Origin: Chloroflexota bacterium
GTDB taxonomy: Bacteria; Chloroflexota; Anaerolineae; Aggregatilineales; Phototrophicaceae
Direction of reading: 5' to 3'
DNA: 64,000 bases
Assembly (NCBI GenBank): GCA_013388745.1
Contig: JACAER010000013.1
Span: 35,366 to 99,365 of the forward strand
This document shows, in pieces, positions 39,390 to 62,081 of the stretch. Numbering within the stretch: the stretch's first letter is position 1; each line of letters starts with the position of its first letter. The position numbers and the translations under genes were made by a program. The notes beneath the pieces were generated by a model. It saw only the letters and a program-made list of their open reading frames with translations. It was not told where the DNA came from and did no database searches.

Positions 39390-39439
39390 TATCCTTTTCC
39401 TTGCCATTCGATCAACTAAATCTTGCATTGCAGATAAAG

Positions 39440-39798
39440 TCACCCGCTAGATTGCCAAGCTTTTGAATGACCGGTATCTACCATTGTAATAAAGCCCCCA
39501 AGCGTGCCTTCCGTGAGAATTCGTTTATAGTTCCCGGCGCGTTGGCACCGTACTGGCGGATGTTCGGCAACTTCATCGGCCACACCGGCAATTTCGTTGA
39601 GCTGCCCCTCAAATGCCGCATGGGGGGCATAAAATTCATTCCGGTCACATTCCAATGGTAATTGCGCAGCCTGGTATACAGCACTGACTCGTCCGCCAAC
39701 AGGACTTTGCGAATCTTGACCACGCCGCGCTGCTGTTTTTCGGCAATCTCTTGATTGGCTTCAATCTTGAGCGTTTTTACACCATTCGCTTTTGTCAT
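39440..39798 (-). pseudogene. Dps-like ferritin, frameshifted and truncated
   Basis: The N-terminus is Dps-like: LLADESVLYTRLRNYHWNVTG. The frame then breaks: MNF is followed in the next frame by YAPHAAFEGQLNEIAGVADEVAEH, and the original frame resumes at IRQYGANAPGTINEF before drifting again. One missing T in TTTT and a missing AT in the CATCC stretch would repair the first two breaks. The C-terminal third of a normal 150-170-residue Dps is absent. Intact Dps stores iron and shields DNA. Several lesions in one gene point to real decay. Confidence 0.8.
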
Positions 39799-39837
39799 TA
39801 CGACTTTCCGAATAATTGCGCTTAGATCAATCCTGAT

Positions 39838-40263
39838 TTAGCGGGGCCGACTCATCACCAACCAGATTAACCGCCCCACCAGCCACGCTGCGATGGCCCA
39901 CACCAGCATGGCAATCAGTGTGGTAATTTCTAGTACGGACGCCCCCCCTGGTGTCGGGTTTTGCAGCAGACTGGCGAATAACGCCACGAAAGGTGCCGAC
40001 AGTCCATAAATGAAACTGGCAAAACCGTTATCTGCATTCACACCGAGCAGATGCAAAATCACTCGAACCGCCAGCAGCAGTTCCAATGCGCCAAACAGGA
40101 AGTAAACGATATTGACAAGGCGCGCCACAAAGGAATTCTGATTGGCCGCCGCGATACCCCGTTTCTTTTCGCCCAGATTTACAGCTTGATGGTGTTCAAC
40201 ATTCCGGTCGACTTTTTCTTCGTGCCGGCCCAATTCCTGATTACGCAATTCGTTTCCAGTCAT
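39838..40263 (-). CDS. YggT-like membrane protein
   Basis: The 141-residue protein has a charged N-terminal part (about 1-55, with RHEEKVDRNVEHHQ) and two membrane segments (about 58-78 and 110-138) with a loop ASFIYGLSAPFVALF, as in YggT-family proteins. The start at 40263 is placed behind AGGAGG (10-base spacing); the ATG at 40314 is possible but would make the Shine-Dalgarno part of the coding sequence (HPRGGKK). Function is unknown; relatives are linked with osmotic stress and division. It belongs to the island's envelope set. Confidence 0.75.
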   Translation of the reverse strand: MTGNELRNQELGRHEEKVDRNVEHHQAVNLGEKKRGIAAANQNSFVARLVNIVYFLFGALELLLAVRVILHLLGVNADNGFASFIYGLSAPFVALFASLLQNPTPGGASVLEITTLIAMLVWAIAAWLVGRLIWLVMSRPR

Positions 40264-40396
40264 TTCTTTTTTGCCTCCTCTTGGATGAGGATAGGTTGCT
40301 TCAATGGTTGTCATAGAACGGGATAAAGTGGTAGACAAGTGGGTTAATGGGTAAGACTAACCCACTTGTCCGGTTTACATCACCGGTCCCAGATGC

Positions 40397-41032
40397 CTAC
40401 TGGGCTAAAGATTCGCGAGTCAGTCGGGTCGTGGCCGGAAGCGGATCTGAGTAACCTTGTGGTAGGCTAAACAGGGCAGCAGCAACAGTTGCGCTAATCC
40501 AACCATGATAGCCGTTGTATCCGTCAATAGAGTCGTTGAGTTCCATCAACGCGATCCAAGCGACACTCAGCGCCGTATCCATGTCGGCAACTACCGTTCG
40601 GAATTCGTAGGTGGCCAGTTCTGGTACGGCATTCTCGCCATCTAGGAGCGAATGGACATTATCGCTGAACGTTACAATGCCCGAAAAGCGACTGGCAATT
40701 GTGGCGCTGGCACGGTTAAACGTCGTCAACGCGCCCGCCAGCCTGGTATATGACCGATTAGCAGACAGATCAACCTCAAGGCCCTCGATGAACGTTATGA
40801 CACTTGAAAGCGAAGGCTGGATTGCTGGAAAGGCTAATTCGTAAGCTATTTGGGCAGCCTCTACCCGTGCCTGACGAGCCATCAATTCGTTGCGGTCACC
40901 TGGAATTGAGATCACCAGCAGCACCAGAAACACGAGCACGGCCGCTGCGATGAGTTTGTTCCGAAGACTCAGGCGATTCAGAAAACCTCTTTTTGCAGTT
41001 TCCTGACCAGTTAGTTTGGCGGATGTAGTCAT
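40397..41032 (-). CDS. LemA-like membrane-anchored protein
   Basis: The 211-residue protein has one membrane helix (about 26-43) followed by a long helical domain. The pattern ARQARVEAAQIAYELAFPAIQPSLSS and the late YNGYHGWISATVAAALFSLPQGYSDPLP recall LemA proteins, which share a YN...FP...F arrangement, but identity is low and I rate the assignment as tentative. The ATG follows GGAG with seven bases spacing. It is flanked by other island genes on the same strand. Confidence 0.6.
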   Translation of the reverse strand: MTTSAKLTGQETAKRGFLNRLSLRNKLIAAAVLVFLVLLVISIPGDRNELMARQARVEAAQIAYELAFPAIQPSLSSVITFIEGLEVDLSANRSYTRLAGALTTFNRASATIASRFSGIVTFSDNVHSLLDGENAVPELATYEFRTVVADMDTALSVAWIALMELNDSIDGYNGYHGWISATVAAALFSLPQGYSDPLPATTRLTRESLAQ

Positions 41033-41180
41033 GATTTGCTCCTTTGAACTAAACCACTTTCTTTGAGGACATTGGACATCGGCTTCTCTCAAAGTCGTTA
41101 TCGGAGTGTCCTCAAGCTTCGGGGGTAACTACTGAAGGTTATTTTGGCCATTGGCCTTGCATGTGCTGGGTGTTTGTTAC

Positions 41181-41450
41181 TCACCCAGGGCTTTGGCCCT
41201 CTGCCTGAGCTTCGAGTTGATCTAGCCGTGTGTAGTAGTCATGGATCTCTTTCAGATGCGCCCAAGCGATCTTTCCCGTCAAGATGGGATCATCATTGGT
41301 GATGTTGGTCTCCGGGTCATGCGCGCCATGTTCGAGTTCGACCTCAAGCCCGCGCCGAAACTGCTCCAGATCGATTATCGTCCAGTCGATCCCAAGCTGT
41401 GTTCCGACCGAGCGTGCTTCCTCACAGGAGATTTGTTGTTTGCTGCTCAT
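41181..41450 (-). CDS. DUF5661 family protein
   Basis: The 89-residue soluble protein contains LGIDWTIIDLEQFRRGLEVELEHG and HDPETNITNDDPILTGKIAWAHL, the signature of DUF5661 proteins, which are found in diverse bacteria and phages. GAGG precedes the ATG. The function is unknown. Confidence 0.85.
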   Translation of the reverse strand: MSSKQQISCEEARSVGTQLGIDWTIIDLEQFRRGLEVELEHGAHDPETNITNDDPILTGKIAWAHLKEIHDYYTRLDQLEAQAEGQSPG

Positions 41451-41564
41451 GAGTCCTCACATTTCTTCAGCGCGGTCCAATCGCGTTGGACATCACCTTT
41501 CTGTTGATCCATAGCAGCCATTGCGTTACCTTCCTTTGCCTAGCAGCGGTCTAATGTGACACAC

Positions 41565-42620
41565 TCAAACCCAGCCGTGCCGCTGAAAAACCACGCGCAT
41601 TACCATAATAGAGCCAATCATGAGCAGTGTAATTAGAATAGAAATAACCAGGCCGTTAATCGGTAGAATCACAGTTTCACCGACGGTGAAGAAATTCGAG
41701 TCAAACAAGCCCACAAAAAACGTGAAGGGCAGAAACACTAACGAAATAATCGTGAGGCGGTTGACCGCCTCCCCCATCTTGCGGGAGTGTTGATTGGCGA
41801 TAATTTCCAACACATTGTTGGTGAGGTCGCGCTGTGCGTCGATCACATCATAAATGCCAAGCAAGCGCTCATAAAGATGGCGGAACAAATCCCGAATATC
41901 GCTATTGCTGGAGACCCGTTGTTCGCCTATGAGATTCGAGAGCACTTCCCGCTGCGGGGCGATCATCTGCCGCAGCCCAATCAGGTGCTGTTTGATGCGA
42001 TAGACCGACTTTTGCGCGTGTTTATCGTCATTGTCATTCAGCAGTTTTGCTTCCAGTTCGTTGAGCTGATTACTGATGCGATCCAGCAGGGGATAGTAGG
42101 TATCAATCATATGTTGTCCGGTAAGGTAGAGAAAATAAGCAGCCCCGCGCTCCCAGGAATTGGGATTTTGAGCCACACGATCATAGGCTTCTTCGAGCGC
42201 GGTAGTGTCGGCTTTGCGCACAGTAATATAATAATGTTCGCCGATAATGCAGTGGATTTCTTTACTCACCAGGGTGTTGCTTTGCGTATGGGGCTGGAAT
42301 AGTGAAAGAAAAAGATAGCCAGGGTACACCAGCAGTGTCGGACGGCGATCTTCCCGCAGCAAATCAGCGACAACGGTGGGGGCCAGTTGCAGTAAACGCT
42401 CAAGCCAGATAATTTCTTGCGCTTCAGGGGTAACGATGTCAATCCACAGCGTCCTGCCTTCGGCAAAACAGGTTTCCAGGTTTTCCTGGGTAAGGTTACG
42501 ACGCAGGGTGAGTGGAACGGCTGAAACATTTTCCGCTGCCCCATCGACTGAGGACACAGCGTTGGCTTCAAGCACCGCCTGATGTTCAGGGTTAGGGACA
42601 ACCACAATCGAACGTATCAT
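41565..42620 (-). CDS. CorA-family divalent-cation transporter lacking a GMN motif
   Basis: The 351-residue protein has the long N-terminal cytoplasmic domain of CorA (YPGYLFLSLFQPH, HCIIGEHYYITVR) and two C-terminal membrane helices (about 290-312 and 322-345). The loop between them should carry GMN, the Mg2+ selectivity motif; here it reads VGLFDSNFF. That change suggests another cation or altered transport. The length and coiled-coil stalk (QLNELEAKLLNDNDD) are otherwise normal. Island gene. Confidence 0.87.
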   Translation of the reverse strand: MIRSIVVVPNPEHQAVLEANAVSSVDGAAENVSAVPLTLRRNLTQENLETCFAEGRTLWIDIVTPEAQEIIWLERLLQLAPTVVADLLREDRRPTLLVYPGYLFLSLFQPHTQSNTLVSKEIHCIIGEHYYITVRKADTTALEEAYDRVAQNPNSWERGAAYFLYLTGQHMIDTYYPLLDRISNQLNELEAKLLNDNDDKHAQKSVYRIKQHLIGLRQMIAPQREVLSNLIGEQRVSSNSDIRDLFRHLYERLLGIYDVIDAQRDLTNNVLEIIANQHSRKMGEAVNRLTIISLVFLPFTFFVGLFDSNFFTVGETVILPINGLVISILITLLMIGSIMVMRVVFQRHGWV

Positions 42621-42677
42621 GTTTCACCATTCCACTCCAGACAAAAATGCGCCACGACGAGAACCTGCGGCGCTGTG

Positions 42678-42962
42678 CTAGGCGTGTTTCATCCGCTCAT
42701 CAACGCTTTTACGCAGATCGTTAAATTGTTCTTCAAGCCGCTTCATAAACGGTTCAATCGATTCGCGGCCCGTATTCAGACCATCGCCGAGACTCTCTGC
42801 AAGCTCGCGGCGGGCTTTTTTGCCAGAAACCGGGGAAAAGAGCACGGCTAATGCGGCTCCGATTCCCAGGCCAAACGTCAGAAAAACCAACATTAGTACG
42901 GCTCTGCCGCGCAGCGCCTGCATTTCGGCGTCGTGACTATAGTAGATACGATCACTGTTCAT
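42678..42962 (-). CDS. YtxH-like small membrane protein
   Basis: The 94-residue protein has one membrane helix (about 17-37) ending LFSPVSGKKARRELAESLGDGL, the typical YtxH continuation (tail with GKKxRxxL), then an amphipathic helix. The family is induced by general stress in Firmicutes. The ATG at 42962 follows GAGG. Adjacent to CorA-like and GlsB-like genes. Confidence 0.82.
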   Translation of the reverse strand: MNSDRIYYSHDAEMQALRGRAVLMLVFLTFGLGIGAALAVLFSPVSGKKARRELAESLGDGLNTGRESIEPFMKRLEEQFNDLRKSVDERMKHA

Positions 42963-43059
42963 TCGCTGTATCCTCATTGCATTAATCAGCAGGTTATGTG
43001 AAGGGGCACGGGCAATAAATCGCCGGTACCCCTATATGATAGAAGCGCGCTGCACGGAC

Positions 43060-43335
43060 TTATCGAGAAAACATCCGGCGTCCACTCAACAGACGCAACA
43101 GGGCCAACAGCACTACCGCCCCGACGAAAGCCACAATGACGCTCCAGATATTGAAGCCCGTCACGCCGGCTGCTCCAAACTGATTGAAGAGAAAACCACC
43201 GATAAAGGCGCCGACGATACCCACAACGATGTCCATAAGCAGCCCTTGCTGGCCGTTCGTTTTCATCACTATGCTTGCCAGCCAGCCAGCAACTGCTCCG
43301 ACGATTAACCACGCGAGCCATCCCATTTGATCCAT
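43060..43335 (-). CDS. GlsB/YeaQ/YmgE family membrane protein
   Basis: The 91-residue protein has three hydrophobic segments with glycine-rich motifs: AWLIVGAVAGWLASIVMK, DIVVGIVGAFIGGFLF, and VIVAFVGAVVLLALLRLL. This matches the transglycosylase-associated (GlsB) family of stress-induced inner-membrane proteins. A perfect GGAGG is eight bases before the ATG. Confidence 0.92.
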   Translation of the reverse strand: MDQMGWLAWLIVGAVAGWLASIVMKTNGQQGLLMDIVVGIVGAFIGGFLFNQFGAAGVTGFNIWSVIVAFVGAVVLLALLRLLSGRRMFSR

Positions 43336-43474
43336 GATTCTTGCCTCCAATAGCTTTGTAGATTACTTCTACATTCAGTATAGAATGTGCAGCCGGTCAA
43401 AACATCCTTCTTCGAGTGGGTTATTTTGTCATCCCAGAGAATGATCTTTTGCCCATCTGACAATTGGCAGTCAG

Positions 43475-43684
43475 TCAGGTAGCGGTATCCTCGTTTTCAA
43501 CCCAGGATTCTTTTTCAACGACCAGGAGAACGGGTTCGGTTGTGCGCTCATGAGGAATAGGAGCAGCAAGGATTACCGTATCGGTTGTAGGAACAGTGAC
43601 CATTACCGGAAGTGATTTGGCTGTGTCCTCGCTGTCAATCTGAGGTTCTTCCTCAACCATCGGAATTGCATAGGGCAAGGACAA
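43475..43684 (-). CDS. possible small acidic protein (TTG start)
   Basis: The 69-codon ORF is not recognised. It contains two similar acidic units, EEEPQIDSEDTA near the start and EKESWVENEDTA at the end, which suggests selection on the protein. The start is a TTG with no clear ribosome site, and the ATG further in (MVEEEPQ) may be real. Chance ORF is the alternative. Confidence 0.3.
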   Translation of the reverse strand: MSLPYAIPMVEEEPQIDSEDTAKSLPVMVTVPTTDTVILAAPIPHERTTEPVLLVVEKESWVENEDTAT

Positions 43685-43746
43685 AGAGAAGTATGTCGGG
43701 AGAGGACAAAAAGAATTTTAGCTGTGTGATCGGCTGGAGGGTTGAT

Positions 43747-44406
43747 CTAGGGGATATAAAAAGTGCCTAAAGTGAGGTTGTGTTCTAATACCATTATGAT
43801 CGCTTCGGTACGACTTTCGACACCCAACTTGGCAAGAATGTTGCTGACATGGTTTTTGGCGGTGGGAAGGCTGATCACCAGCAGGTCGGCAATCTCCTTA
43901 TTCTCCAACCCTTTAACCATTAAACTCAGCACTTCTCGTTCGCGCGGGGTCAGATTCTCAAATTTTGGTTGAGGTTCCTGGATGGATCGGACGAGGACAT
44001 CGGTGACTTCCTGCGCATAGGTAGGAGAACCCTTTTTAGCGGCGCGGATGGCCTTAGCGAGATCGTCCGCCGAAATCTTCTTAAATAAGTATCCAGTTAC
44101 CCCTGCTGCGAGAGCGTCCTTAATCAGTCTCTCTTCACCGAAACTGGTGAGTGCAATCACCTTTATGTCTGGGAAGTCGTGGTGGATGAGGCGTGTAGCC
44201 GTGATACCATCCATGATGGGCATCATCAAATCCATCAATACAACATCGGGTCGTTTTTCGGCGCACAGGGCTAAGGCTTCTTTTCCATTAGCCGCTTCAC
44301 CCACCAGTTCGAGATCACTGTAACTCATCAGGAATACGGCTAAACCCCTACGCAGCATAGCGTGGTCATCGACGATCACGATCCGTATCCGATTTTGTGA
44401 CACCAT
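43747..44406 (-). CDS. NarL/FixJ-type response regulator
   Basis: The 219-residue regulator has a receiver domain (about 5-125) with DD near 13-14, phospho-acceptor Asp in VVLMDLMMPIMDG near 59 and K in LFKKISADDL, then a LuxR-type helix-turn-helix (about 150-210, LTPREREVLSLMVKGLENKEIA). The adjoining kinase, on the same strand 44 bp upstream, makes a clear two-component pair. Target genes are probably in the island, but no site is recognised. Confidence 0.94.
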   Translation of the reverse strand: MVSQNRIRIVIVDDHAMLRRGLAVFLMSYSDLELVGEAANGKEALALCAEKRPDVVLMDLMMPIMDGITATRLIHHDFPDIKVIALTSFGEERLIKDALAAGVTGYLFKKISADDLAKAIRAAKKGSPTYAQEVTDVLVRSIQEPQPKFENLTPREREVLSLMVKGLENKEIADLLVISLPTAKNHVSNILAKLGVESRTEAIIMVLEHNLTLGTFYIP

Positions 44407-44450
44407 TTATTCACCTTGACTACCGAACTTTGTGAAAACATTCCCTGCAA

Positions 44451-45995
44451 TTATTGTACTGAGTTCTCATCTGCGGGAGCAACCCAACTGACTTTGATCA
44501 GTGTCCCCTCCCCTTTATAGCTGGTGATTTCCAGCGCTCCACCAATACTCTGGACGCGGTCTTTCATAATCCTGAGTCCCAGGTGATCGGGGCCAATTTC
44601 AGTCGGGTCGAAGCCAGTTCCATCGTCCTGAATAGTGAGTTCAACTCGTCCCGAATGGCTGCTAAAATGGATTTCAATATGGCTGGCTAAAGCGTGGTGG
44701 GCAGTATTGTTGAGCGCTTCCTGGGCCACACGGTAGAAAACAAAATGCACTTCTGACGGAACAGGCTCCAGATCTTCTATTTGTACCGAAATCTTCAGGC
44801 CAGCGCGGTTAGCGATGATTCCGGCGAGCTGGCGGATCAGGTCGCCTAATTTCTCATCAGTGAGGGCCGAAGGCCGGAGTTCCAGCAGCAGGGCGCGCAT
44901 CTCTTCCAGAGCGTTTTGAGCTAATTGATGGACAGTAGCCAGAGTGCGTCGTCCCTCCTCCACATCAAATTCCCATATCGCGGGCAGCCGTTCGGTTATC
45001 AGGCTCACCGACCAGAGCGTCTGAGAGATGGTATCATGCAGTTCATTCGCCAGACGGCTCCGCTCTGCCGTTACCGCCGCCTGTTTAGCGCGGCCAAGCA
45101 GGCGGGCATTTTGAATGGCAATGGCGGCCTGATCGGCAAAACTTTGCAGCCGTTCCGCATGTGCCTGGGTGAAATAGCCCGGAGTAGCACTATCCAGCGA
45201 TAAAAAGCCTAGAATGGTGCCGTTGGCGCGGATAGGAGCGGTGACATTCGAGTTGACCCAATCTAAGCCTGGAAAGCCAATCCACATCGGCGAAGTGGTT
45301 GTATCGGCAATCGCCAGCGGTTTTCCAATTTCAATCAATTGCTGTAAGGCCACCAGTTTCGCAAGGGGAATGCGCTGGCTTAACCACGCTTTTTCCAGTC
45401 CCTTTTCGATGTACCCTCTCTGACGTACTACCCGTACCAGATCAGACTCTACAAACAGGACATTCGCTCCATCATAGGGGGTAACCCGTTTAATGGTATC
45501 AAGGATATGATCCAGGATTTTATCCAGGTCAAGGGTACTGCTCATAGTCGCCAGCGTATCGCGCAGGGCCTCGGTTAAGGCGCGTTCTCCCTGCTCAAGC
45601 GCCTGGGTTCGTTTTTGCGCCTCAATTTGTTCCTGCAGGCGTTGGTTCAGCCTGGACTGATAGGCAATGTGTTCTTGAAGGTGCGCCTCCAAGTGGTTAT
45701 AGGCTTTTCGCAGCTTTCGCGCGGCAGTTTCGCGCTCGGTGATCTGGCTTTTCAAGGCAACCGTCGCTCGGGTCAAGGCGGCTGTTTGCTCCTGAACCTG
45801 TCTTTCCAATTCGGCATAGGTTTCGGATATATCGTGTTCTGATAACGTAGGGCCAGTGCCCTGCTGGATTAAATCCACTATCTCGCTAAGTACGGTTGTG
45901 GTCGCGTTGAGTGCTGCCGCATCGGTTGGTTGATTCTGCTGAAGTGCGTTAATCCAGCTTTGAATCGCCTCTATTTTTTCATTCAGGTCACTCAT
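44451..45995 (-). CDS. GAF-domain histidine kinase (HisKA_3/NarX-like)
   Basis: The 514-residue protein has a long coiled coil (about 60-150, ELERQVQEQTAALTRA), a GAF sensor (about 165-305) and a HisKA_3 dimer domain with phospho-histidine in SRLANELHDTISQTLW, followed by HATPase (DDGTGFD, HLGLRIMKDR). No membrane helix, so it senses an internal signal. The ATG at 45995 is used; the track's GTG at 46013 lies 18 bases upstream. It precedes the NarL-type regulator. Confidence 0.92.
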   Translation of the reverse strand: MSDLNEKIEAIQSWINALQQNQPTDAAALNATTTVLSEIVDLIQQGTGPTLSEHDISETYAELERQVQEQTAALTRATVALKSQITERETAARKLRKAYNHLEAHLQEHIAYQSRLNQRLQEQIEAQKRTQALEQGERALTEALRDTLATMSSTLDLDKILDHILDTIKRVTPYDGANVLFVESDLVRVVRQRGYIEKGLEKAWLSQRIPLAKLVALQQLIEIGKPLAIADTTTSPMWIGFPGLDWVNSNVTAPIRANGTILGFLSLDSATPGYFTQAHAERLQSFADQAAIAIQNARLLGRAKQAAVTAERSRLANELHDTISQTLWSVSLITERLPAIWEFDVEEGRRTLATVHQLAQNALEEMRALLLELRPSALTDEKLGDLIRQLAGIIANRAGLKISVQIEDLEPVPSEVHFVFYRVAQEALNNTAHHALASHIEIHFSSHSGRVELTIQDDGTGFDPTEIGPDHLGLRIMKDRVQSIGGALEITSYKGEGTLIKVSWVAPADENSVQ

Positions 45996-46116
45996 TTCAC
46001 TATCCGCCTTCACCTATGCTGAGATGGTTCTGATAGTGACGGAAAATTGTCTCTTCAGCAAAAAGATCATTCCAAAGGACTAATGGAAGTACGATTTCAA
46101 AATGAGATGATCTTCC

Positions 46117-46144
46117 GTAGGGGCGCACGGCTGTGCGCTCCTAC
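46117..46144. repeat. GTAGGGGCGCAC-type palindrome
   Basis: GTAGGGGCGCAC and GTGCGCTCCTAC form a 12-bp stem with one G-T pair and a 4-nt loop. This GTAGGGGCGCAC...TAC palindrome is a widespread dispersed repeat in Chloroflexota and cyanobacteria. Confidence 0.7.
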
Positions 46145-46178
46145 GGGAACATTCGACATCTAAGTACAACCACAGAAA

Positions 46179-46292
46179 TCATGACGGAAGCGCCCCGATA
46201 ATCGACAAGACCTGTTGGAGCATTTTGTTGTAACGGTCGAAGAAGCGTTGAGCCGCACGGAGCAGGGCTTTAACATTCTCAAATAGCACACT
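46179..46292 (-). pseudogene. IS630-type transposase, C-terminal remnant
   Basis: The last 37 codons of a transposase-like frame are intact: SVLFENVKALLRAAQRFFD and RYNKMLQQVLSIIGALPS, ending in TGA. The FFxxYN ... LSIIG tail is characteristic of IS630-group transposases. The upstream part has been lost. Confidence 0.5.
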
Positions 46293-46387
46293 TTACTTAT
46301 AGGACACATCCATTCGTGCGTCTCATTTCATGTCTCATGATATATTTCTCGGAGGGCTTAAAATGTGATGAGATATGGGGAAATCCT

Positions 46388-46441
46388 ATGGCGATCATTG
46401 GCTACGCGCGCGTCAGTTCGGTGCGGCAAGGGATAATGTGA
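46388..46441 (+). pseudogene. serine recombinase/resolvase, N-terminal remnant
   Basis: The first 14 codons read MAIIGYARVSSVRQ, the start of Tn3-type resolvases/serine recombinases with the nucleophile serine in YARVSS. The frame then stops (GIM and TGA). GGGGA precedes the ATG. The rest of the gene is missing. Confidence 0.6.
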
Positions 46442-46462
46442 GTTGCATTATACGGCCCGTCA

Positions 46463-46750
46463 TCAAGGGCACTGAAACGCATAATTGTCCCACCCACCCA
46501 CCGCGATAGCGCTGCGGCGATACCCACGCTGCTCCTCGTCCCACCGTTCATACCGCTCACGACCTGGAAAATCGGTCGCCTCTTGTTCCAACATCTCTTG
46601 AACCACCCGCTGCGCCGCCAGCCGAATGAACTGACTTATCGGTGCTTGCTGGCTGCCGCCGCCCACGACATCTCGTAACTCTTGCCGTACCCGTTCACTG
46701 GGTGCTATTTCTGGCATACGGACATCACCGGCGTGTTTGACGCTGAACAC
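46463..46750 (-). pseudogene. IS256-type transposase, N-terminal remnant
   Basis: Residues MPEIAPSERVRQELRD and FIRLAAQRVVQEMLEQEATDFPGRERYER match the start of IS256-family transposases (which continue with RGYRNGY). Here the match ends at RGYRR and the remaining 16 residues are unrelated, so the catalytic DDE domain is lost. Confidence 0.7.
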
Positions 46751-46760
46751 CTTGAATAAA

Positions 46761-46800
46761 AACAGCCTCTACCGGCGAATAAACGTCGGTAGAGGCTGTT
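46761..46800 (-). terminator. 14-bp stem hairpin, intrinsic-terminator-like on the minus strand
   Basis: AACAGCCTCTACCG and CGGTAGAGGCTGTT are exact 14-bp arms. On the minus strand the stem is followed by TTTTTATT, a good terminator tail. Its inner stem (GCCTCTACC / GGTAGAGG) is identical to the terminator stem at 47718. Confidence 0.7.
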
Positions 46801-46951
46801 AGTGCTTTATATGACGGTTTGGTCAAATTAGCCGGGGCCGAGCCTCATCGCTCTCTTCAATTATCTGTGTTATCCTGCTCTTGCTGGCGCTTGACAAGAG
46901 CCATTTACTGAAGTCAAGTAAAGAGAAAAGATGCAGGAGGCACTTGCCTGT

Positions 46952-47560
46952 ATGACTCGAATTATCCTGACCCGACATGGACAAACGGATTGGAATCGCT
47001 ATGAACGCTTCCGAGGGCGTGCTGATATTCCTCTCAACGAGACCGGAATTGTACAGGCGGAAGCAGTGCAGCGGCGCATCAAGTCAGGCGGGCAACTGGC
47101 GGCGATTTATACCAGTCCCATGAGCCGATCCGTCAAAACCGCCGAGATCATTGCAGCGGCATTTGATCTGGTTGTGCAGCCTGTGGATGCGCTAAATGAT
47201 ATTCATTACGGTGAATGGCAGGGTTTGACGGCGGATGAAGTGCGAAGACACTGGTCTGATGCGTTGGATACCTGGTATCGCGCACCGCATCTGGCGCGAA
47301 TTCCCGGCGGTGAAACGCTGCATAACGTGCTCGCACGCACAGCCAATGCCCTTTGTGACATCACCCAGAAACATCCCTCCGAAGATGTCGTGATCGTAGG
47401 ACATGACTGCGTGAATCGCATCCTGCTGCTCTTTATGCTGGGTTTGCCGCTTTCGCGTTACTGGCATCTTGTACAGGGGAACTGCGCGATCAATATTATT
47501 CATTTCGAGAACAATGATTTTACAGTGGTTTTGATGAACGAAACCTCGCATCTCCCATAG
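46952..47560 (+). CDS. histidine phosphatase (phosphoglycerate-mutase-like)
   Basis: The 202-residue enzyme has the catalytic RHG in LTRHGQTDWNRYERFRGRADIPLNETG, SRSVKTAEIIA and the second histidine in VIVGHDCVNRILL. It resembles CobC/PhoE-type small-molecule phosphatases; the substrate is not fixed by sequence. AGGAGG lies 11 bases before the ATG at 46952; the track's ATG at 46931 would bury it. It is flanked by the transposase graveyard and the fluoride locus. Confidence 0.9.
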   Translation: MTRIILTRHGQTDWNRYERFRGRADIPLNETGIVQAEAVQRRIKSGGQLAAIYTSPMSRSVKTAEIIAAAFDLVVQPVDALNDIHYGEWQGLTADEVRRHWSDALDTWYRAPHLARIPGGETLHNVLARTANALCDITQKHPSEDVVIVGHDCVNRILLLFMLGLPLSRYWHLVQGNCAINIIHFENNDFTVVLMNETSHLP

Positions 47561-47606
47561 GGTGACAAGAGAATATTTCTTCAATTGTTTACCGTATGGT
47601 TGGTGC

Positions 47607-47635
47607 TTGACATTTACGACTGGGGGCAGGATAAT
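47607..47635 (+). promoter_or_regulatory. consensus sigma-70 promoter of the fluoride operon
   Basis: TTGACA (47607-47612) and GATAAT (47630-47635) are spaced by exactly 17 bp. A transcript would begin near 47642, about 18 nt before the aptamer. This is the strongest canonical promoter in the window. Confidence 0.85.
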
Positions 47636-47659
47636 TGCCCGCTGAGAAGTAAATTCATT

Positions 47660-47725
47660 AAGCGATGAAGCTCGCTTGAGCCATCTGTTGGCCGAAGCGT
47701 CCAAAGTGGACTGATAGCCTCTACC
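47660..47725 (+). promoter_or_regulatory. fluoride riboswitch (crcB motif)
   Basis: The element shows the parts of the fluoride aptamer: P1 hairpin AAGCGA/TCGCTT with loop ATGAAGC, P2 hairpin GTCCA-aag-TGGAC, then CTGATAGCCTCTACC. That last string matches the conserved CUGAUGGCCUCUAC tail of the Thermotoga fluoride riboswitch. The loop GAAGCT can pair with AGCCTC (pseudoknot, one mismatch). A 21-nt joining region has an extra small hairpin (GCCA/TGGC). The tail overlaps the 5' arm of the following terminator, so aptamer folding should block termination when fluoride is bound. Located 162 bp before crcB. Confidence 0.82.
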
Positions 47726-47746
47726 CGATGTGGTAGAGGTTTTTTT
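47718..47746 (+). terminator. intrinsic terminator, expression platform of the fluoride riboswitch
   Basis: CCTCTACC-cgatgt-GGTAGAGG followed by seven T. The 5' arm is shared with the riboswitch pseudoknot strand. Without fluoride this would stop transcription after about 105 nt. Confidence 0.9.
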
Positions 47747-47886
47747 GTCTGGAAGCGGATCAGATGATTGAGCTTATAAAAGGAACGCTGACAGCTAAAG
47801 ATGGGTTTGAACTTGTTCATCGCCAATTTGCGCTAGAGTTAACATCAAAATCATGACTTCAAATCAGCAAACGGCAGCATAAATCT

Positions 47887-48282
47887 ATGTTCTTGACGAG
47901 GCGACAGGTGGAGACTTTTCTCATCATCGGGCTAGGTGGGTTTATCGGCGCGAATTTGCGGTATATCGTTTCGGGCTGGGCAACCGAGCGTTTTGGGAAT
48001 GCCTTCCCGTGGGGAACCCTGCTTATCAATTTTAGCGGCTCGTGTCTGCTGGCGGTCTTTGTTGGATGGGCTACCAATCATCCTCTCTTCGACCCGCGTG
48101 TACGGCTACTGATTGCCGTTGGTTTTTTCGGGGCATATACCACTTTTTCGACCTATGCGACGGAGAGTCTTGCGCTTTTGCAGGCGGGTGATTGGATTGG
48201 CGCTGTGGGCAACGTTTTGGGAACGAATCTGATCTGTATTCTTGGAGCACTTTTAGGGCTGGCAGTTGGCGGTCGATTGTAA
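47887..48282 (+). CDS. crcB: fluoride exporter FluC (CrcB)
   Basis: The 131-residue protein has four membrane helices and the CrcB motifs: GGFIGANLRYIVSGW at the start, GTLLINFSGSCLLAVF (with the conserved Asn) and GFFGAYTTFSTYATES (the Phe-box and TTFSTF-type region). Fluc channels form dual-topology dimers that expel F-. It is downstream of the fluoride riboswitch and 23 bp before the DUF190 gene. Confidence 0.95.
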   Translation: MFLTRRQVETFLIIGLGGFIGANLRYIVSGWATERFGNAFPWGTLLINFSGSCLLAVFVGWATNHPLFDPRVRLLIAVGFFGAYTTFSTYATESLALLQAGDWIGAVGNVLGTNLICILGALLGLAVGGRL

Positions 48283-48305
48283 AATAAGGATAAAGGAGAA
48301 ATGCG

Positions 48306-49577
48306 GTGTCAGCGCCTATTTATGCTAAAAGACTCATGATTTACCTGGGAGAGAACGATACCTGGCGGGGACGTTCCCTCTACATGAGTATTCTCGAATC
48401 GCTTCGCAAAGCTGGAATTGCTGGAGGAACGGTGACGCGCGCCATTGCCGGTTTTGGAGCGCACAGCCGCATCCGAACGCACACCATTGAAGTGTTGTCC
48501 GTCGATTTACCCATTGTGATTTCGATTATCGACATTCCAGAAAACATTGAGCGGGCACTGGCGCTCATTTCGCCGATGGTGCGTGAAGGGTTAATTACGG
48601 TAGAAGATGTCGAAATCATCAAATATACCCATCGTTATCTGCACCCATTGCCTGCTGATCAGCCAGTGGCTGCGATCATGACCCGTGAGATAACGACAGT
48701 GACACGGGAAACACCCGCCCGTCAGGTTGTCGAACTGCTGTTAGGCAAATTGTTTAAGGCAGTGCCCGTCGTTGACGAGCAAAACCGTGTAATTGGGATT
48801 ATCACCGATGGCGATTTGCTGCGAAATGCTGGAATGCCTGTTCGTTTAGCCATTGGTGAAAGACTTGAAGCAGACGACCTGCGCCAATTTCTGGCTTCGG
48901 TGCGTCAGGAAAAAACGGCTCAAGAAATTATGACCAGCCCTGTCGTGACCGCGCGGGAAGATGAAGCGCTCGGTCATGTTGTGCAACAACTGCTGAATAA
49001 GGGCTTGAAGCGAATGCCGGTGGTTGACACAGATGGCAAGCTGGTTGGGATGGTCAGCCGCCTGGATATTTTACGGGCAACGGCTGGTCATGGCGGTGGA
49101 CAGCAGGAGCAGGCTCCTGCGCTACATCCAGGACAGACGATTGGTGAATTGATGACTTCTGAAGTGCCTATCGTACACGTCAATGACGACCTTACCGATG
49201 TGCTTCAACACTTACTTCAGGCAGATACTAAGCGGGTTATTGTCCTTGATGAGCAAGAACGCCCCATAGGAATCATCACCGATGGCGATCTGGTGGCGCG
49301 GGTTAGTCCAGTGATACGGCGTAATGTGCTTCAGGCGTTAGCCGCCAAAATGATGGGAACAGATGTGAAACGAGGCGAAGTGACGGCGGGTGAGATGATG
49401 TCTGAGCATGTGCTGACATCTCCCCCAACGACCAGTCTTGTTGAAGCCATCAACCTTATGCTGCACGAAGGGCGCAAGCGTCTCATCGTCGTGGATGAAC
49501 AGGGGCGTCCGCTGGGTATTGTGGATCGGCAAACGCTGATGGCAGCCAGCCTGGGCGGATTAAAAAATAACTTATAG
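48306..49577 (+). CDS. DUF190 protein fused to four CBS domains
   Basis: The 423-residue product begins with a PII-like DUF190 domain (about 1-108: KRLMIYLGENDTWRGRSLYMSIL and LRKAGIAGGTVTRAIAGFG). Four CBS domains follow as two Bateman pairs (start motifs IMTREITTV, IMTSPVVTA, LMTSEVPIV, MMSEHVLTS; each ending in IGIITDGDLL or LGIVDRQTL type sequence). CBS pairs usually bind adenosine nucleotides. DUF190 genes often accompany crcB, so a fluoride-linked regulatory role is likely. The start is GTG behind GGAG; transcription is shared with crcB. Confidence 0.92.
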   Translation: MSAPIYAKRLMIYLGENDTWRGRSLYMSILESLRKAGIAGGTVTRAIAGFGAHSRIRTHTIEVLSVDLPIVISIIDIPENIERALALISPMVREGLITVEDVEIIKYTHRYLHPLPADQPVAAIMTREITTVTRETPARQVVELLLGKLFKAVPVVDEQNRVIGIITDGDLLRNAGMPVRLAIGERLEADDLRQFLASVRQEKTAQEIMTSPVVTAREDEALGHVVQQLLNKGLKRMPVVDTDGKLVGMVSRLDILRATAGHGGGQQEQAPALHPGQTIGELMTSEVPIVHVNDDLTDVLQHLLQADTKRVIVLDEQERPIGIITDGDLVARVSPVIRRNVLQALAAKMMGTDVKRGEVTAGEMMSEHVLTSPPTTSLVEAINLMLHEGRKRLIVVDEQGRPLGIVDRQTLMAASLGGLKNNL

Positions 49578-49606
49578 TTCGGCAAATCGGTATACGATAA
49601 CACACA

Positions 49607-49789
49607 TTGACTGTTGACGAGGCGCTTCGTAAGCTGGATTCCAGTGTGGAATACGGCTTAACCTCTGGGGAAGCAGAAAAACGTCTTCAGCAGTACAGAG
49701 TCGAGGCATTAACCAAAAGTATGCCCCTGGTCTTTGGCATCGTCTTCTCGCTCAGTTCAATAATTTCGTCATCTATCTGTGTGACCTGA
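49607..49789 (+). pseudogene. P-type cation ATPase, N-terminal remnant
   Basis: MTVDEALRKLDSSVEYGLTS and GEAEKRLQQY match the cation-ATPase N-domain. After about 32 codons the family sequence moves to another frame (LLAQFNNFVIYL, typical of the first membrane region), and then all similarity ends. The P domain and all transport residues are missing. The start is a TTG shortly after the DUF190 gene. Confidence 0.75.
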
Positions 49790-49924
49790 AACGCAATTTA
49801 GTCGATACCTACGACAATGGTGAGCTGCGTGAATTCACAAACTGGACGTGGTGGCAATCCGTTAGGCAAACAGGCAGGGGTTAAAGGAATCAGTTCAACA
49901 CGCATGCGCCAATCAGCATGATGC

Positions 49925-49958
49925 CCCCCTTCCCCAGCGATTGCTGCCGAGGAAGGGG
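49925..49958. repeat. GC-rich palindrome at the glgC 3' side
   Basis: CCCCTTCC and GGAAGGGG arms close to the glgC stop resemble the hairpin at 35837-35868 beside glgP. Coordinates are approximate by a few bases. Confidence 0.45.
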
Positions 49959-49971
49959 TGAGCGGACGCAG

Positions 49972-51231
49972 CTACTTCTTCTCATACCCCAAATGCGTGC
50001 CAGACGGGATGATCTTGTTCTCGAAGCTGGCGAAATGGCTGTCCTGCAAGTCTACGCCCAGAATGCAGCTATGGCCCACGGTGAAGCCCTGCGGCACGCG
50101 CGTCCCCTTGCCAATGCACGTAATCCCCAGTTCGCCCATCTGCTGGATGCTGCCTACGTTGGCGTCTTCGCCGATAAAGGCGATCTTGTCGATAATGCAG
50201 CGCTCGACATTGGCCCCGGCTGCGATATAAGCATCGTTCAGAATGATCGACTCGCGGATCACCGCGTTTGGCCCGACATATACGCCCGGCGAGAGCACCG
50301 AACGCTCGACCACCGCACCCTCACAGATCACCGAGCCGTTCGTCACTAAGCTGTTCTTGATGACCGCGCCTGCCTGAATACTCACCGGCGCGCGTTCCTC
50401 GCTCAAGGTGTGAATAACCCATGTGCGGTCATTCAGATTGAGTGAAGGCGGCGACGCCAGCAAATCCATATGCGCTTCCCAGTAGGCGTCGATCGTCCCC
50501 ACGTCAATCCAATAGCCGCCATAGGCATAAGCGAACACTTTCATGTTATCGCGCACCATACGCGGAATCAGGTCTTTGCCGAAATCGTGGCTGCTATCGC
50601 GCTTCTTTTGATCGTCCTTCAGCAGCATTTCCAACACATGATAATTGAAAACATAGATGCCCATGCTCGCCAGATTGCCGGGCGGGTTCTTCGGCTTTTC
50701 GATGAAATCCTTGACGCTGTAGTCCTCATTCACATCCAGAATCCCGTAGCGGCTGGCCTCGTCCATCGGCACACGGATCACGCAGATCGTGCAGTCCGCG
50801 CCCTTTTCCCGGTGGAAGTCGATCAGTTCGTCATACGCCATCTGATAAATATGATCGCCAGAGAGAATGAGCACATATTCCGGGTTGCCGCGCCGCACAA
50901 AATTGACATTCTGCGCCACCGCGTCCGCCGTGCCCGCGTACCAGTCGGTATCGAAGCGCCCCTTATACGGCTGCAAAATCTGCACCCCGCCGGTGAACGA
51001 GCGGTCTAAGTCCCAGGGACGCCCCTTGCCGATATGGTCAATCAGGCTGTGTGGGCGGTACTGCGTCAAAATCAGCACATCGAAAATATTAGAATTGACG
51101 CAGTTGCTCAGCGTAAAATCGATAATGCGATACTTGCCCGCGAAGGGCACAGCGGGTTTGGCACGTTTGGTGGTGAGTGTCGCCAAGCGTGTGCCTTCGC
51201 CGCCTGCCAGAATCACTGCTTTGGTTTTCAC
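49972..51231 (-). CDS. glgC: glucose-1-phosphate adenylyltransferase
   Basis: The 419-residue enzyme makes ADP-glucose for glycogen. [23 protein letters not shown] is the nucleotide loop; [15 protein letters not shown] and [12 protein letters not shown] are typical; the C-terminal left-handed beta helix has [19 protein letters not shown] repeats. The start is a GTG with AGGAG nine bases upstream. It faces the island on its 3' side and is followed upstream by glgA and the branching enzyme on the same strand. Confidence 0.95.
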
Positions 51232-58116: not shown

Positions 58117-59454
58117 TCACCCCGCGCGCCCCTCCCAGCGGAAGCGCCACGCGCAGCCCGGCGCATAAGTGAACGTCACCGTGAGTTCGCCCGTATACGT
58201 CGCCGCCGCCAGCGTCAGCCGCAGCGTATACGTCGCATCGCCCAGCGCCGCCGCGCCGATATAATCCACGCCCTCCGCCGTCATGATAAAGCGCAGATCG
58301 TTCCAGGCCACCTGTTGCAGCGTGCGCGTGTCATCAAAACGCAGCGTCAGCGGGAAGGCCGCCGATTCGGATGCCCCGCCGCAGGTGTCGCTCAGCAGCG
58401 CAGCGAAGTTCAGCCACAATTCCCCCTCTATAGCGGGCGCTGTGGGCGTTTCTCCCTCCTCCAGCGCGGCGATTTGCGCTTCAGTCAGCGTGGGCGGCAC
58501 AGTGACCGCCTCCGGCAGCAGACTCAACGGCGCATGGACTAAAATGTCCTGATCGTAAGGCTCCAGGGGCAGAAGCGCGCCCGCCGCGAGGCCCTCGGCG
58601 TTCAGCGGCACCCGCGCCTGTGTGCCCGCCGCCACAAACTGATAGGCGCCCTCGGCCTCTGCCAGCACTGAACCGCTCAGCAGCGTCAGCCGCAGTTCAT
58701 CGTCGGCTTGCAGCAGCAGCGTCGAATCCAGGCGCAGATTGACGGCGTTGACCGACAGCAGTGCCCGCCCAGAAAAAGCCGGCGTCTGCATCAGCAGCCC
58801 GCCGCATTCGCCGCTGCGCAGCGCCAGCGCCTGCATCGGCCCGTACTGCGGCACATTCGGATCGACCACGTTCAACGTCGCCACATCGCCTTCGACGTTC
58901 ACCAGCGTCGCCAGCACCCACCCGCTGGCCGCCGGCGCGTCGATCAGCAGCCAACTGCTGTCACTCAGCCGTCCGATGGCTGTCGCCGCCTGCGCGAGGC
59001 GCAGCGAACCGCGAATCTCGGCGTTTTCACGCGGCAGCGCGCGGATATTGGCCCCCGTGCGCGCGGTAATCGGCAGCGTCACGGGGGCGTCCGCCGCCCC
59101 CAGATTCGTCAGCGTAATGTCGCCATAGCCGATCAGCGTCACGTTCTCCTGCGGCGCGGCGTCGGCGAAATTGGCCTGCACGCGCAGCACAGCGATTCCC
59201 CCGTTGATCGTCAGCGCGCGCAGCGTATGCAAATCCGTCGTATCGCCCGCCTGCGCGAAGACCGCTTCCACGCCCGCTGTCGTTTCCGCGCTGATGTCGC
59301 CCGCGCCGTAGCACGCCATATTGCGCGACGTATCAGCGCACGCCGCACGCACCGCTTCAATAGCGAATACCGGGCAGTCCGCGCTCTGCGCCAGCACGCG
59401 CGCCGCCAAGAACACTACCGCCAGCGCGATCAACCCACTTTTCACAGCATTCAT
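58117..59454 (-). CDS. secreted protein with SH3b domain
   Basis: The 445-residue product has a signal peptide (about 1-22, ending ARVLAQS), a Cys-rich N-terminal part (CPVF ... CAD ... MACYG), then an SH3b-like domain (about 130-195: ARTGANIRALPRENAEIRGSLRLAQ ... SSWLLIDAPAASGWV). The rest is beta-rich with further Cys (ECGGLL, DTCGGAS, GCAWRFRW). The ATG at 59454 is used since the signal peptide begins there. It is divergent from the TIR membrane protein, which also has an SH3b domain. Function unknown. Confidence 0.75.
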   Translation of the reverse strand: MNAVKSGLIALAVVFLAARVLAQSADCPVFAIEAVRAACADTSRNMACYGAGDISAETTAGVEAVFAQAGDTTDLHTLRALTINGGIAVLRVQANFADAAPQENVTLIGYGDITLTNLGAADAPVTLPITARTGANIRALPRENAEIRGSLRLAQAATAIGRLSDSSWLLIDAPAASGWVLATLVNVEGDVATLNVVDPNVPQYGPMQALALRSGECGGLLMQTPAFSGRALLSVNAVNLRLDSTLLLQADDELRLTLLSGSVLAEAEGAYQFVAAGTQARVPLNAEGLAAGALLPLEPYDQDILVHAPLSLLPEAVTVPPTLTEAQIAALEEGETPTAPAIEGELWLNFAALLSDTCGGASESAAFPLTLRFDDTRTLQQVAWNDLRFIMTAEGVDYIGAAALGDATYTLRLTLAAATYTGELTVTFTYAPGCAWRFRWEGRAG

Positions 59455-59551: not shown

Positions 59552-60760
59552 ATGGCCGACGTGTTCATCAGCTACCGGCGCAAAGAAAGCTCGCAGCTTG
59601 CCGACAATCTCGTCACCAAACTCAAGCAGCGGCGCATCAGCGTCTTCCTGGACACGCGCAACACCGACGGCGGCGGGCCGTTTCCGCCGCGCCTCTTGGC
59701 GGCTATCGAGCGTTCGCGCGTATTTGTCTGTCTGCTGGGCGCGACCACGCTGGAATCGGATTGGGTGCAAAAAGAGATCGAGCACGCGCACAAGCACAAA
59801 AAAGTGCTGATTCCGGTGTTTCAAGAAAGCTACCAGCGCCCGGCAGAGGCGCTGCCGGCGGTGGCGGCGCTGCTGCAAAACGACGGTGTGCATTTTATGG
59901 ATGTCAAAAACATCTATATCGACGACGCGATTGACGCGCTGGTCAAACTGATTCGTCCCTATCAACGCCCGCTGCGCCTTTACGCCGGTTTGCTGACACT
60001 GGCGCTGCTGGCGGCGGTGGTTATCGGCTTTTTCGTCTTGCGTCCCTTGTTCGGAGGCACGGATGCTGCCGTCACACCTACTGTCAGCCCCACGCCGACA
60101 TCCTCACCCAGCGCGACCGCCAGCCCGACGCCAGAAGTGAGTCCTACGGCGACGGTGGCGCCCTGCGCGCTGTGGGAGAATGGCGCGCAGGGCTATGTTA
60201 TTGGCGATGAGGCGACGCTGCGCCCGCAGCCCAGCAGCGAATCGACCTACATGGGTCTCGACGCGAACCTGCCATACGGCGCGCGCGTAGAAATTATCGG
60301 CGCAGTCTTTTTTGACGGCCAGCAGTGCTGGTGGTATGTCGTGCCCATCGGCACTGAACTCAGCGTTGCTATTGGCTGGATTGAGGAAGAACTGCTGAGC
60401 GACACCCTACCGGCCACGCCGACACCCGTGCGCAGTCCCGGCTTCACCGCTGATCCCGGCCAAGGTGGGCCCGATGCGCCCACCGACCTTTGCGGCGATC
60501 TCAACTGCGATCCGGGCGAGGAACAGACCTGCCCGCGTGACTGCCCCCTACCGCCGACGGCCTACGTACCGCCGGCACCTGTCTGCGGGAATTTGATCTG
60601 CGAGGCGGGCGAACCCAATAGCTGCCCGCGCGACTGTAGGATTGTGCCGACGCAAGAAGGCGCGCCGAGCGCCGCCGTCTGCGGCAATCTCAACTGTGAG
60701 GCCGGTGAAACGACAAGCTGCCCGCGCGACTGCCCGATCGCGCCGACAGGCAGTCCGTAA
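59552..60760 (+). CDS. TIR - membrane helix - SH3b - cysteine-repeat protein
   Basis: The 402-residue protein has a TIR domain (about 1-130): VFISYRRKE is box 1 and DWVQKE places a glutamate (E75) four residues after W71, as in NAD-cleaving TIRs. One membrane helix follows (about 144-166), then a Thr/Pro/Ser linker (about 167-205), an SH3b-like domain (about 207-285) and three Cys repeats (CGDLNCDPGEE ... CPRDC, CGNLICEAGE ..., CGNLNCEAGE ..., at about 313, 344, 376). TIR inside and Cys repeats outside is inferred from the helix. The architecture suggests a surface sensor. No TIR partner gene is adjacent. Confidence 0.92.
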   Translation: MADVFISYRRKESSQLADNLVTKLKQRRISVFLDTRNTDGGGPFPPRLLAAIERSRVFVCLLGATTLESDWVQKEIEHAHKHKKVLIPVFQESYQRPAEALPAVAALLQNDGVHFMDVKNIYIDDAIDALVKLIRPYQRPLRLYAGLLTLALLAAVVIGFFVLRPLFGGTDAAVTPTVSPTPTSSPSATASPTPEVSPTATVAPCALWENGAQGYVIGDEATLRPQPSSESTYMGLDANLPYGARVEIIGAVFFDGQQCWWYVVPIGTELSVAIGWIEEELLSDTLPATPTPVRSPGFTADPGQGGPDAPTDLCGDLNCDPGEEQTCPRDCPLPPTAYVPPAPVCGNLICEAGEPNSCPRDCRIVPTQEGAPSAAVCGNLNCEAGETTSCPRDCPIAPTGSP

Positions 60761-60763
60761 GCT

Positions 60764-61162
60764 TTAGGGGTTATGCTCGCACAGCCCGACCGTCACGCCG
60801 CCCGTCATGTGACTGGGCACATTCACAACTTTCAATTTGGGAAACGAAAGCACCAGCGGCGCCGGGGGCAAAATGCCCTGAGTCACGGCAGCGGGAATCG
60901 TCGTCGCTTCCAGATCATCCACCTCGATCATCAGCGTCACGGCGGACGCGCGCGGCATCGCGTTCAGTTCGATAATGCGTTCGCCAATGCCCAGCACCGC
61001 TTTGGTCACGTTGGCATCGGAAGGCGGGGTCATGCCGGTGAAGGGGTCGCTTGCCGGCGCAACAGCGCGCACCGGCAACTTCAAAAAATCACGCCAGAAG
61101 CGCAGCGCCTGCTGCATGTTATCAACGTCAATCGAGATCGTGTGGATACGCACGCCAGCCAT
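60764..61162 (-). CDS. VOC-family (glyoxalase-like) protein
   Basis: The 132-residue protein has the VOC fold: VRIHTISIDVDNMQQALRFWRDFLKLP, IIELNAMPRASAVTLMIEVDD and VNVPSHMTGGVTVGLCEHNP. Substrate not determinable. GGGGGC precedes the ATG. Convergent with the TIR membrane protein (three bases between stops). Confidence 0.85.
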   Translation of the reverse strand: MAGVRIHTISIDVDNMQQALRFWRDFLKLPVRAVAPASDPFTGMTPPSDANVTKAVLGIGERIIELNAMPRASAVTLMIEVDDLEATTIPAAVTQGILPPAPLVLSFPKLKVVNVPSHMTGGVTVGLCEHNP

Positions 61163-61260: not shown

Positions 61261-61380
61261 CTAGAGAGCAAAAATATCCTTGAGCCGCTCCGCGTTTTCC
61301 GGCGCGTTGGCGAAGTTCAGAAATTCTGGGGTGCTGATGCCCTGTTTTTGCGCCACCATCGTGCCCATCCTCGTCGTCAT
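61261..61380 (-). pseudogene. Uma2-family protein, N-terminal remnant
   Basis: The 39 codons MTTRMGTMVAQKQGISTPEF and NFANAPENAERLKDIF match the N-terminal segment of Uma2 proteins, including the (S/T)xxEFxxFxxxPENxxRL pattern seen in the intact gene at 9881. The frame ends in TAG and the nuclease core is gone. A MITE-like element begins 16 bp upstream. Confidence 0.55.
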
Positions 61381-61395
61381 ATCATTGAATGCCTT

Positions 61396-61485
61396 AGGAC
61401 TTACGCAGTTGAAGAGTGATCTGTGCTTGAACAAGGGGTTTAAGTTTAAACCCCTCGTTTTATGAACCCAACTGCGCAACTTTTA
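61396..61485. mobile_element. MITE-like element, about 90 bp
   Basis: The left end AGGACTTACGCAGTTG and the right end (read on the other strand) AAAGTTGCGCAGTTG are imperfect terminal inverted repeats. Between them is a perfect 10-bp-arm palindrome (AGGGGTTTAA / TTAAACCCCT). AGGACTTACGCA is a familiar end of small non-autonomous elements in cyanobacteria and Chloroflexota. No target-site duplication is evident. Confidence 0.6.
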
Positions 61486-61491: not shown

Positions 61492-61902
61492 TTACCCTGA
61501 TTTCGGCAGTTGATACAATTCCAGCAGCACGCCGCCTGTGCTCTTGGGATGCACAAAAGCGTAGAGCGTGCCGTCCGGGCGCGTTTTAGCGCTGTCGTTA
61601 ATCAGTTCGATTCCCTTGCTTTTGAGTTCTTCGAGTTTTGCCGCCACATCGGGCACTTCCAGACAGATGTGATGCAGCCCGGCGCCTTTTTTCGCCAGAT
61701 ATTTGGCGACGCCGCTGTCTGGTGTGATCGGCGCGATCAATTCGATTTCGCCCTGATGCCCTTCCATCGGCAAAAAGGCGATTTCCACCGCCTCGCCGTC
61801 GTTGCGTTCGGTGTGTTGCAGCGGCAACCCCAGCGCGTCACGCCAGAACGTCAGCGCCGCGTTTACGTCTTCGACCACGATCGCGATATGGTTGATTTTC
61901 AT
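61492..61902 (-). CDS. mce: methylmalonyl-CoA epimerase
   Basis: The 136-residue VOC protein starts MKINHIAIVVEDVNAALTFWRD, with the metal ligand His in NHIAI, and has GLHHICLEVPDV and a C-terminal Glu in VLLELYQL, as in methylmalonyl-CoA epimerase. It interconverts the (S) and (R) forms of methylmalonyl-CoA for the mutase whose B12 subunit is at 28.2 kb. The ATG at 61902 has GAGG six bases upstream. Divergent from the acyl-CoA dehydrogenase gene. Confidence 0.9.
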   Translation of the reverse strand: MKINHIAIVVEDVNAALTFWRDALGLPLQHTERNDGEAVEIAFLPMEGHQGEIELIAPITPDSGVAKYLAKKGAGLHHICLEVPDVAAKLEELKSKGIELINDSAKTRPDGTLYAFVHPKSTGGVLLELYQLPKSG

Positions 61903-62081
61903 GGGTATCCTCAATATAACCTGTTCGATTTCCAGTCAAAGTCTATAGGCAATTGCATTGTCCCCGAAAGTGAAGAAAAGCATAGGCGCGAACTGTCTTT
62001 TTATACAAAAACCTGTCGCCGCGCGAAGCGGACACGTTATAATCTAATCCAAAGTAGATAACTGATGAGAGGAATACGGTT

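Follow-up and report, generated by a model that had tools for sequence, protein, structure and literature searches.

A predicted surface receptor with a SARM1-like TIR domain, one membrane helix and an outer SH3b-like and cysteine-repeat tail in a Chloroflexota bacterium

Does the TIR protein encoded at this locus sense a ligand outside the cell and answer it with NAD cleavage inside? A preliminary description, made from the DNA sequence of the window (the whole stretch of 64,000 nucleotides that was analysed), had suggested a surface receptor of this kind. Its coordinates for the gene were correct: the open reading frame runs on the + strand from an ATG at 59552 to a stop codon ending at 60760 and encodes 402 aa, and the start is backed by relatives that begin with 'M..VFISYRR'. 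From its N-terminus, the protein consists of a TIR domain, one membrane helix, a Thr/Pro/Ser linker, an SH3-like barrel and three repeats with four cysteines each (Table 1). A structure model was built from 35 aligned rows, in which the linker and the cysteine parts remained unresolved. The window also contains a second TIR gene (10509-11735, - strand), whose product of 408 aa combines a TIR with an FGE-sulfatase domain and has no membrane helix. The G+C content of positions 38001-50000 is about 0.50-0.52 compared to about 0.60 around them, perhaps marking an island.

Table 1 Features of the TIR gene and its neighbours, in positions of the window.
Feature	Position	Strand	Basis
Complete gene, TIR-TM-SH3b-Cys3 protein (402 aa)	59552..60760	+	ORF; full-length relative L199
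TIR domain, aa 1-137, SARM1-like; Y8 R9 R10 D34 F44 W71 E75 as in SARM1	59552..59962	+	Pfam, alignment, model, fold search
Predicted catalytic glutamate codon, E75 (WxxxE)	59774..59776	+	Alignment
Membrane helix, aa 141-163; K/R on N side to C side 4:1 in 20 residues	59972..60040	+	Model, charge count
Outer linker, Thr/Pro/Ser-rich, aa 164-204	60041..60163	+	Low-confidence, unstructured in model
SH3b-like outer domain, aa 205-286 (strands aa 213-278)	60164..60409	+	Models, fold matches, relatives
Cys repeat 1, CGDLNCDPGEEQTCPRDC	60491..60544	+	Repeat pattern
Cys repeat 2, CGNLICEAGEPNSCPRDC	60584..60637	+	Repeat pattern
Cys repeat 3, CGNLNCEAGETTSCPRDC	60680..60733	+	Repeat pattern
Divergent neighbour, secreted, member of a large paralogue family; unlikely to be a dedicated partner	58117..59454	-	Family count, synteny
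Glyoxalase-like gene, convergent, ends 4 bases from TIR gene	60764..61162	-	Profile match, L199 comparison

The N-terminal domain matched Pfam TIR_2 at 2.3e-18 with 67.3 bits, against a curated cut-off of 28, and adopted a complete TIR fold in the predicted model, with pLDDT values mostly above 90. The nearest solved folds were the TIR domains of SARM1 and TIR-1 (E 2e-9), with AbTir ranking lower, and the model superimposed on the SARM1 TIR with a TM-score of 0.80. SARM1 and TIR-1 were also the closest solved relatives by sequence. The structure prediction proposed in the preliminary description as a check thus returned a full TIR fold with SARM1 as best match.

For the pocket residues, we rely on the numbering and roles of SARM1 residues that we take to be established. 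The WxxxE motif noted before corresponds to W71-E75 and aligns with 'DWVHKE' of SARM1. Residues Y8, R9, R10, D34, F44, W71 and E75 are placed opposite SARM1 Y568, R569, R570, D594, F603, W638 and E642, so that the SARM1-type pocket set of WxxxE glutamate, YRR, Asp and Phe is present in the alignment. E75 is invariant in 35/35 aligned rows, as are F5, S7, Y8, R10, S13, A17, D34, A79 and P88. The aromatic W662 of the SARM1 composite site is not kept; R96 occupies the aligned position, and therefore part of a SARM1-type composite site differs. Because the catalytic residues are conserved as in SARM1, NAD cleavage by this TIR is predicted to be likely, though the W662 position is changed.

The same replacement would also suit a protein that cleaves no NAD at all. 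Once bound to its ligand, such a membrane TIR scaffold would recruit other TIR or signalling proteins, in the manner of animal Toll-like receptors and MyD88, and the TIRs of those receptors are primarily thought to be scaffolds (PMC13142454). Potential partners are at hand, since the genome holds 25 TIR_2 matches. However, the catalytic glutamate, YRR, D34, F44 and W71 are kept as in SARM1 and the solved structures closest to it belong to active NAD hydrolases, and we regard a pure scaffold role as unlikely.

A single strong hydrophobic stretch covers aa 145-163, with a mean hydropathy of 2.69 over 19 residues, and coincides with a helix at aa 141-163 in the structure model, in agreement with the one membrane helix described before. 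The protein has no signal peptide, and the helix comes after the TIR. Counting 20 flanking residues, four K/R lie on the N side and one on the C side; in L199, a relative from another genus, the numbers are 7 and 1. One cysteine precedes the helix and 14 follow it. The charge distribution, and the fact that each of the outer modules also occurs on secreted or exported proteins, suggest that the TIR lies inside and the SH3b/Cys tail outside, as had been proposed; the predicted orientation is supported but not proven. Alternatively, the helix might pack on the TIR or form a soluble oligomer, insertion being backed by prediction. Against this stand the hydropathy, the charge bias and the comparable helix of many TIR-TM relatives with differing outer parts, and we consider a non-inserted helix highly improbable.

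Following the linker, the model contains an all-beta SH3-like barrel (aa 213-278) with pLDDT blocks mostly of 79-91, and a barrel was obtained again when the outer part was modelled alone. Its best fold matches were SH3b-bearing NlpC/P60 peptidases and an endolysin, at a weak E of about 0.05. The 402-aa protein itself gave no match to a Pfam SH3b model; SH3_3 does match the relatives in L208 (1.3e-7) and L203 (7e-6), and weakly that in L199. The SH3b named in the preliminary description thus holds as an SH3b-like domain by virtue of its fold and its relatives, and not by a Pfam score of its own.

Three cysteine repeats of the form CGNxxCExGExxxCPRDC had been described as well. All three are present; repeats 2 and 3 fit exactly, whereas repeat 1 deviates and reads CGDLNCDPGEEQTCPRDC. 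We searched 61 genomes with a degenerate DNA pattern of the repeat and used the reversed pattern as control. Three forward matches lie in the TIR gene and others elsewhere, across 12 genomes including that of the window, while the reversed pattern gave 0 matches in the 61 genomes, which argues that the repeat is not a product of chance. Pfam and NCBIfam contain no named family for it. In relatives, the repeat sits on secreted, lipoprotein-like or TM proteins, such as Ser/Thr kinase-TM-linker-Cys repeat proteins (L152, L153) and signal-peptide proteins with SH3b and Cys repeat (L154, L155).

The whole plan of TIR, TM, linker, SH3b and three Cys repeats recurs once, in L199 from another genus of the family, at 34% identity over the full length. 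As the full architecture is found in a second genus, a chance fusion does not account for it. The plan is kept between the two proteins while their outer sequences have diverged far. From the 61 genomes, the C-terminal parts had appeared to be unique to the window protein, an idea that was dropped once L199 was found. In the TIR tree, a joint clade of the two TIR domains was neither supported nor rejected (p-AU 0.316).

Relatives of the TIR domain were collected by a genome scan with a 6-row TIR alignment as query. Matches to the TIR clade at E <=1e-15 occurred in 33/154 genomes of the order. Among 298 sampled genomes of the class, the best matches outside the order reached ~2e-17, compared to 1e-44 to 1e-71 for members inside, and by these sequence comparisons the clade is restricted to the order. 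The closest named relatives are nearly all from Chloroflexota MAGs, mainly Anaerolineae, with Aggregatilineales among them. Clade TIRs precede TM-FGE, soluble FGE, TM-CARDB, kinase-TM-SH3b and TM-SH3b parts, mostly a membrane helix with outer domains; TIR-TM-SH3b proteins are encoded in L208 and L203. The survey of this architecture that had been suggested earlier therefore found the same plan in L199 and recurring TIR-TM-outer-domain proteins in the order. Given how many TIR-TM proteins with outer sensor-like domains the order contains, the earlier view of a membrane TIR as unusual was too strong. TIR-Ser/Thr kinase-TM-SH3b proteins of about 1,050-1,180 aa were observed in L080, L085, L087, L089, L098 and others, several of them with two SH3b domains and a common C-terminal domain. 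The TIR gene is patchy within genus and order, and the assembly of the other species of the genus, about 75% complete, holds no close relative of it.

Several TIR-TM-SH3b genes stand directly before a gene for a secreted protein, which indicates that the receptor plan recurs. In L208, L203 and L206, the TIR-TM-SH3b gene is followed downstream by a gene of one secreted-protein family; the other two copies share 39% and 32% identity with the L208 copy, and two of the copies match PPC weakly. Used as query, the secreted PPC-like protein matched in 11/61 genomes; the window's genome (88.9% complete) gave no match. To avoid selection by TIR, adjacency was counted in nine inspected loci found via the secreted protein itself, outside of which stand the remaining matches, mostly weak or at contig edges. 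An intact TIR-TM-SH3b gene is located directly upstream in 3/9 loci (L275, L279 and L281, the SH3b of L279 being assigned by resemblance). In L278, a TIR-TM gene lies two genes upstream, and in L282 the locus is cut by the contig end. No TIR was present beside the secreted-protein gene in L277, L280 and L283, 3/9 of the inspected loci. In L276 (1624-3035), TIR and TM-SH3b are found in two overlapping frames, reflecting a split gene, an assembly error or a frameshift. Since a genome of this size holds about 25 TIR domains, a TIR would be expected next to a given locus by chance in well under 1% of cases.

The pairs of TIR-TM-SH3b and secreted-protein genes come from several genera. Their TIR subfamilies are very different between loci, while the TM-outer part stays alike, a pattern that fits a receptor with exchangeable output. 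Overall, a secreted, weakly PPC-like gene was seen directly after a TIR-TM-SH3b gene in L275, L279, L281, L284, L285 and L206. The window protein has the TIR, the one TM helix and the outer SH3b-like domain of this receptor group of the order, as found in L275, L281, L284 and L285. These four have a secreted PPC-like neighbour, and some of them a further outer domain; the window protein carries Cys repeats instead.

The preliminary description had also pointed to the divergent gene as encoding a secreted SH3b protein that could be a partner. The gene is there; its likely start, however, is at 59454 (with a signal peptide, MNAVKSGLIALAVVFLAARVLAQS) and not at 59568, and its SH3_3 match is below threshold (E 0.1). 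A dedicated ligand or co-receptor would fit starts about 97 bases apart, the outer location of both products, and family members elsewhere with LysM or the same Cys repeat. On the other hand, the family has 28 matches in the window genome and is present in 59/61 genomes. Its members are uncharacterised and have no Pfam model, some of them carrying LysM, SH3b or Cys repeats. A short contig from the other species of the genus (L215) encodes an orthologue of the divergent gene (47% identity) with two paralogues, a 198-aa ORF and a methylmalonyl-CoA epimerase-like gene with 77% identity to window 61495-61914. Order and strand are the same as in the window except that no TIR occurs at this syntenic locus. 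Both the TIR gene and the convergent glyoxalase-like gene of the window are thus missing from this position in the sister species, and the divergent gene is independent of the TIR; the L199 region has no neighbour like it. A partnership of the two proteins is accordingly very unlikely. Positions 61264-61482 (- strand) appear to be a remnant of the 198-aa ORF that is intact in the sister species. In L199, a glyoxalase-like gene (2215-2643, + strand), weakly alike to that of the window, abuts the TIR gene convergently as well.

Among the adjacent genes scanned, on a contig that ends about 3.2 kb to the right, there is no known TIR-signal effector, Thoeris effector or other recognised defence gene. 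A search for a STALD effector in the window genome gave no match, as did its control everywhere. Assignment to a known defence family was rejected, as the PADLOC and NCBIfam matches were partial TIR matches only.

Our preferred reading, to which we assign a probability of about 0.55, is that of a surface sensor in which an outer ligand clusters the TIR domains and turns on NAD cleavage. The N-terminal TIR of the single-pass protein would face the cytoplasm, and the C-terminal SH3b/Cys tail would lie outside, in or at the cell wall. The outer part may bind or lose a ligand, be it wall material, a product of damaged wall or a secreted protein. A wall ligand is possible because the genome encodes peptidoglycan synthesis (mraY, 2e-82). 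The ligand event would gather several copies, and the clustered TIRs may jointly form an active site in which NAD+ is cleaved at E75. The output would be local NAD loss or an ADP-ribose-type signal, probably resulting in a defence or stress response. For the window protein, we infer ligand, clustering, NAD cleavage, output and purpose alike. A membrane tether can restrain a TIR, as loss of the N-terminal membrane helix frees TIR toxicity in an amoeba protein of bacterial origin (PMC13142454).

The same mechanism could instead serve stress or development rather than phage defence, reading wall integrity or cell contact and adjusting NAD metabolism or growth. This would agree with an outer domain of a wall-associated type, with outer modules common to kinase receptors and with the lack of a recognised defence gene among the adjacent genes. 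Patchy presence in genus and order, however, is seen more often among accessory defence genes than among genes of core development, and we judge this purpose possible but doubtful. Together with the scaffold role, it is the main rival to the surface sensor with clustered, NAD-cleaving TIRs.

Several known systems share parts of this plan. The animal proteins SARM1 and TIR-1 have TIR sequence and fold, the catalytic Glu and its surrounding residues in common with the window protein; SARM1, however, is under the control of ARM and SAM domains and responds to NMN/NAD within the cell, whereas the window protein has a membrane helix, an outer SH3b/Cys tail and a changed W662 position. Animal Toll-like receptors share the single-pass plan of an outer sensor and a cytoplasmic TIR, a likeness of plan only. 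The window protein is no Toll-like receptor, as it lacks outer LRRs and a C-terminal TIR; its orientation is reversed, with an N-terminal TIR that is of the enzyme type. Thoeris ThsB/ThcB proteins contain a bacterial TIR like that of the window, with partial matches to the ThsB_TIR and ThcB4 models, but 64.3 bits are far below the ThcB4 equivalog cut-off of 220. PknB-type Ser/Thr kinase receptors of the order (L080, L152) have, as here, a cytoplasmic signalling domain, one TM, a T/P-rich linker and an outer SH3b or Cys repeat, except that a kinase replaces or accompanies the TIR.

TIR NADases, SH3b domains and TIR fusions are already known. Bacterial TIR groups typically mix proteins of different architectures (PMC7075850), and conflict systems of multicellular bacteria, Chloroflexi among them, commonly have TIRs as effector domains (PMC8195603, PMC7159879). 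A description of a bacterial TIR-TM-SH3b receptor was not found in the open-access literature, a body of text that leaves most subscription papers outside. The window protein represents one form of a set of predicted surface TIR receptors that recurs in the order and has apparently not been described before. We tentatively propose, at somewhat less than even odds, that the order holds a family of such receptors with an interchangeable TIR, one helix, an outer SH3b that may be joined by Cys repeats, and often a co-encoded secreted protein. These would convert an external or wall signal into NAD-based signalling and would be functional counterparts of Toll-like receptors in which the TIR is an enzyme and the topology is reversed. 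To our knowledge, those bacterial TIR defence systems that have been characterised detect phage within the cell. If the proposal is true, signalling across the membrane would mean that bacteria possess receptors of an immune type for the outside or the wall, as is otherwise known from animal Toll-like receptors. The modular set, with one outer plan, different TIRs and co-encoded secreted proteins, provides defined constructs for testing ligand, clustering and NAD output.
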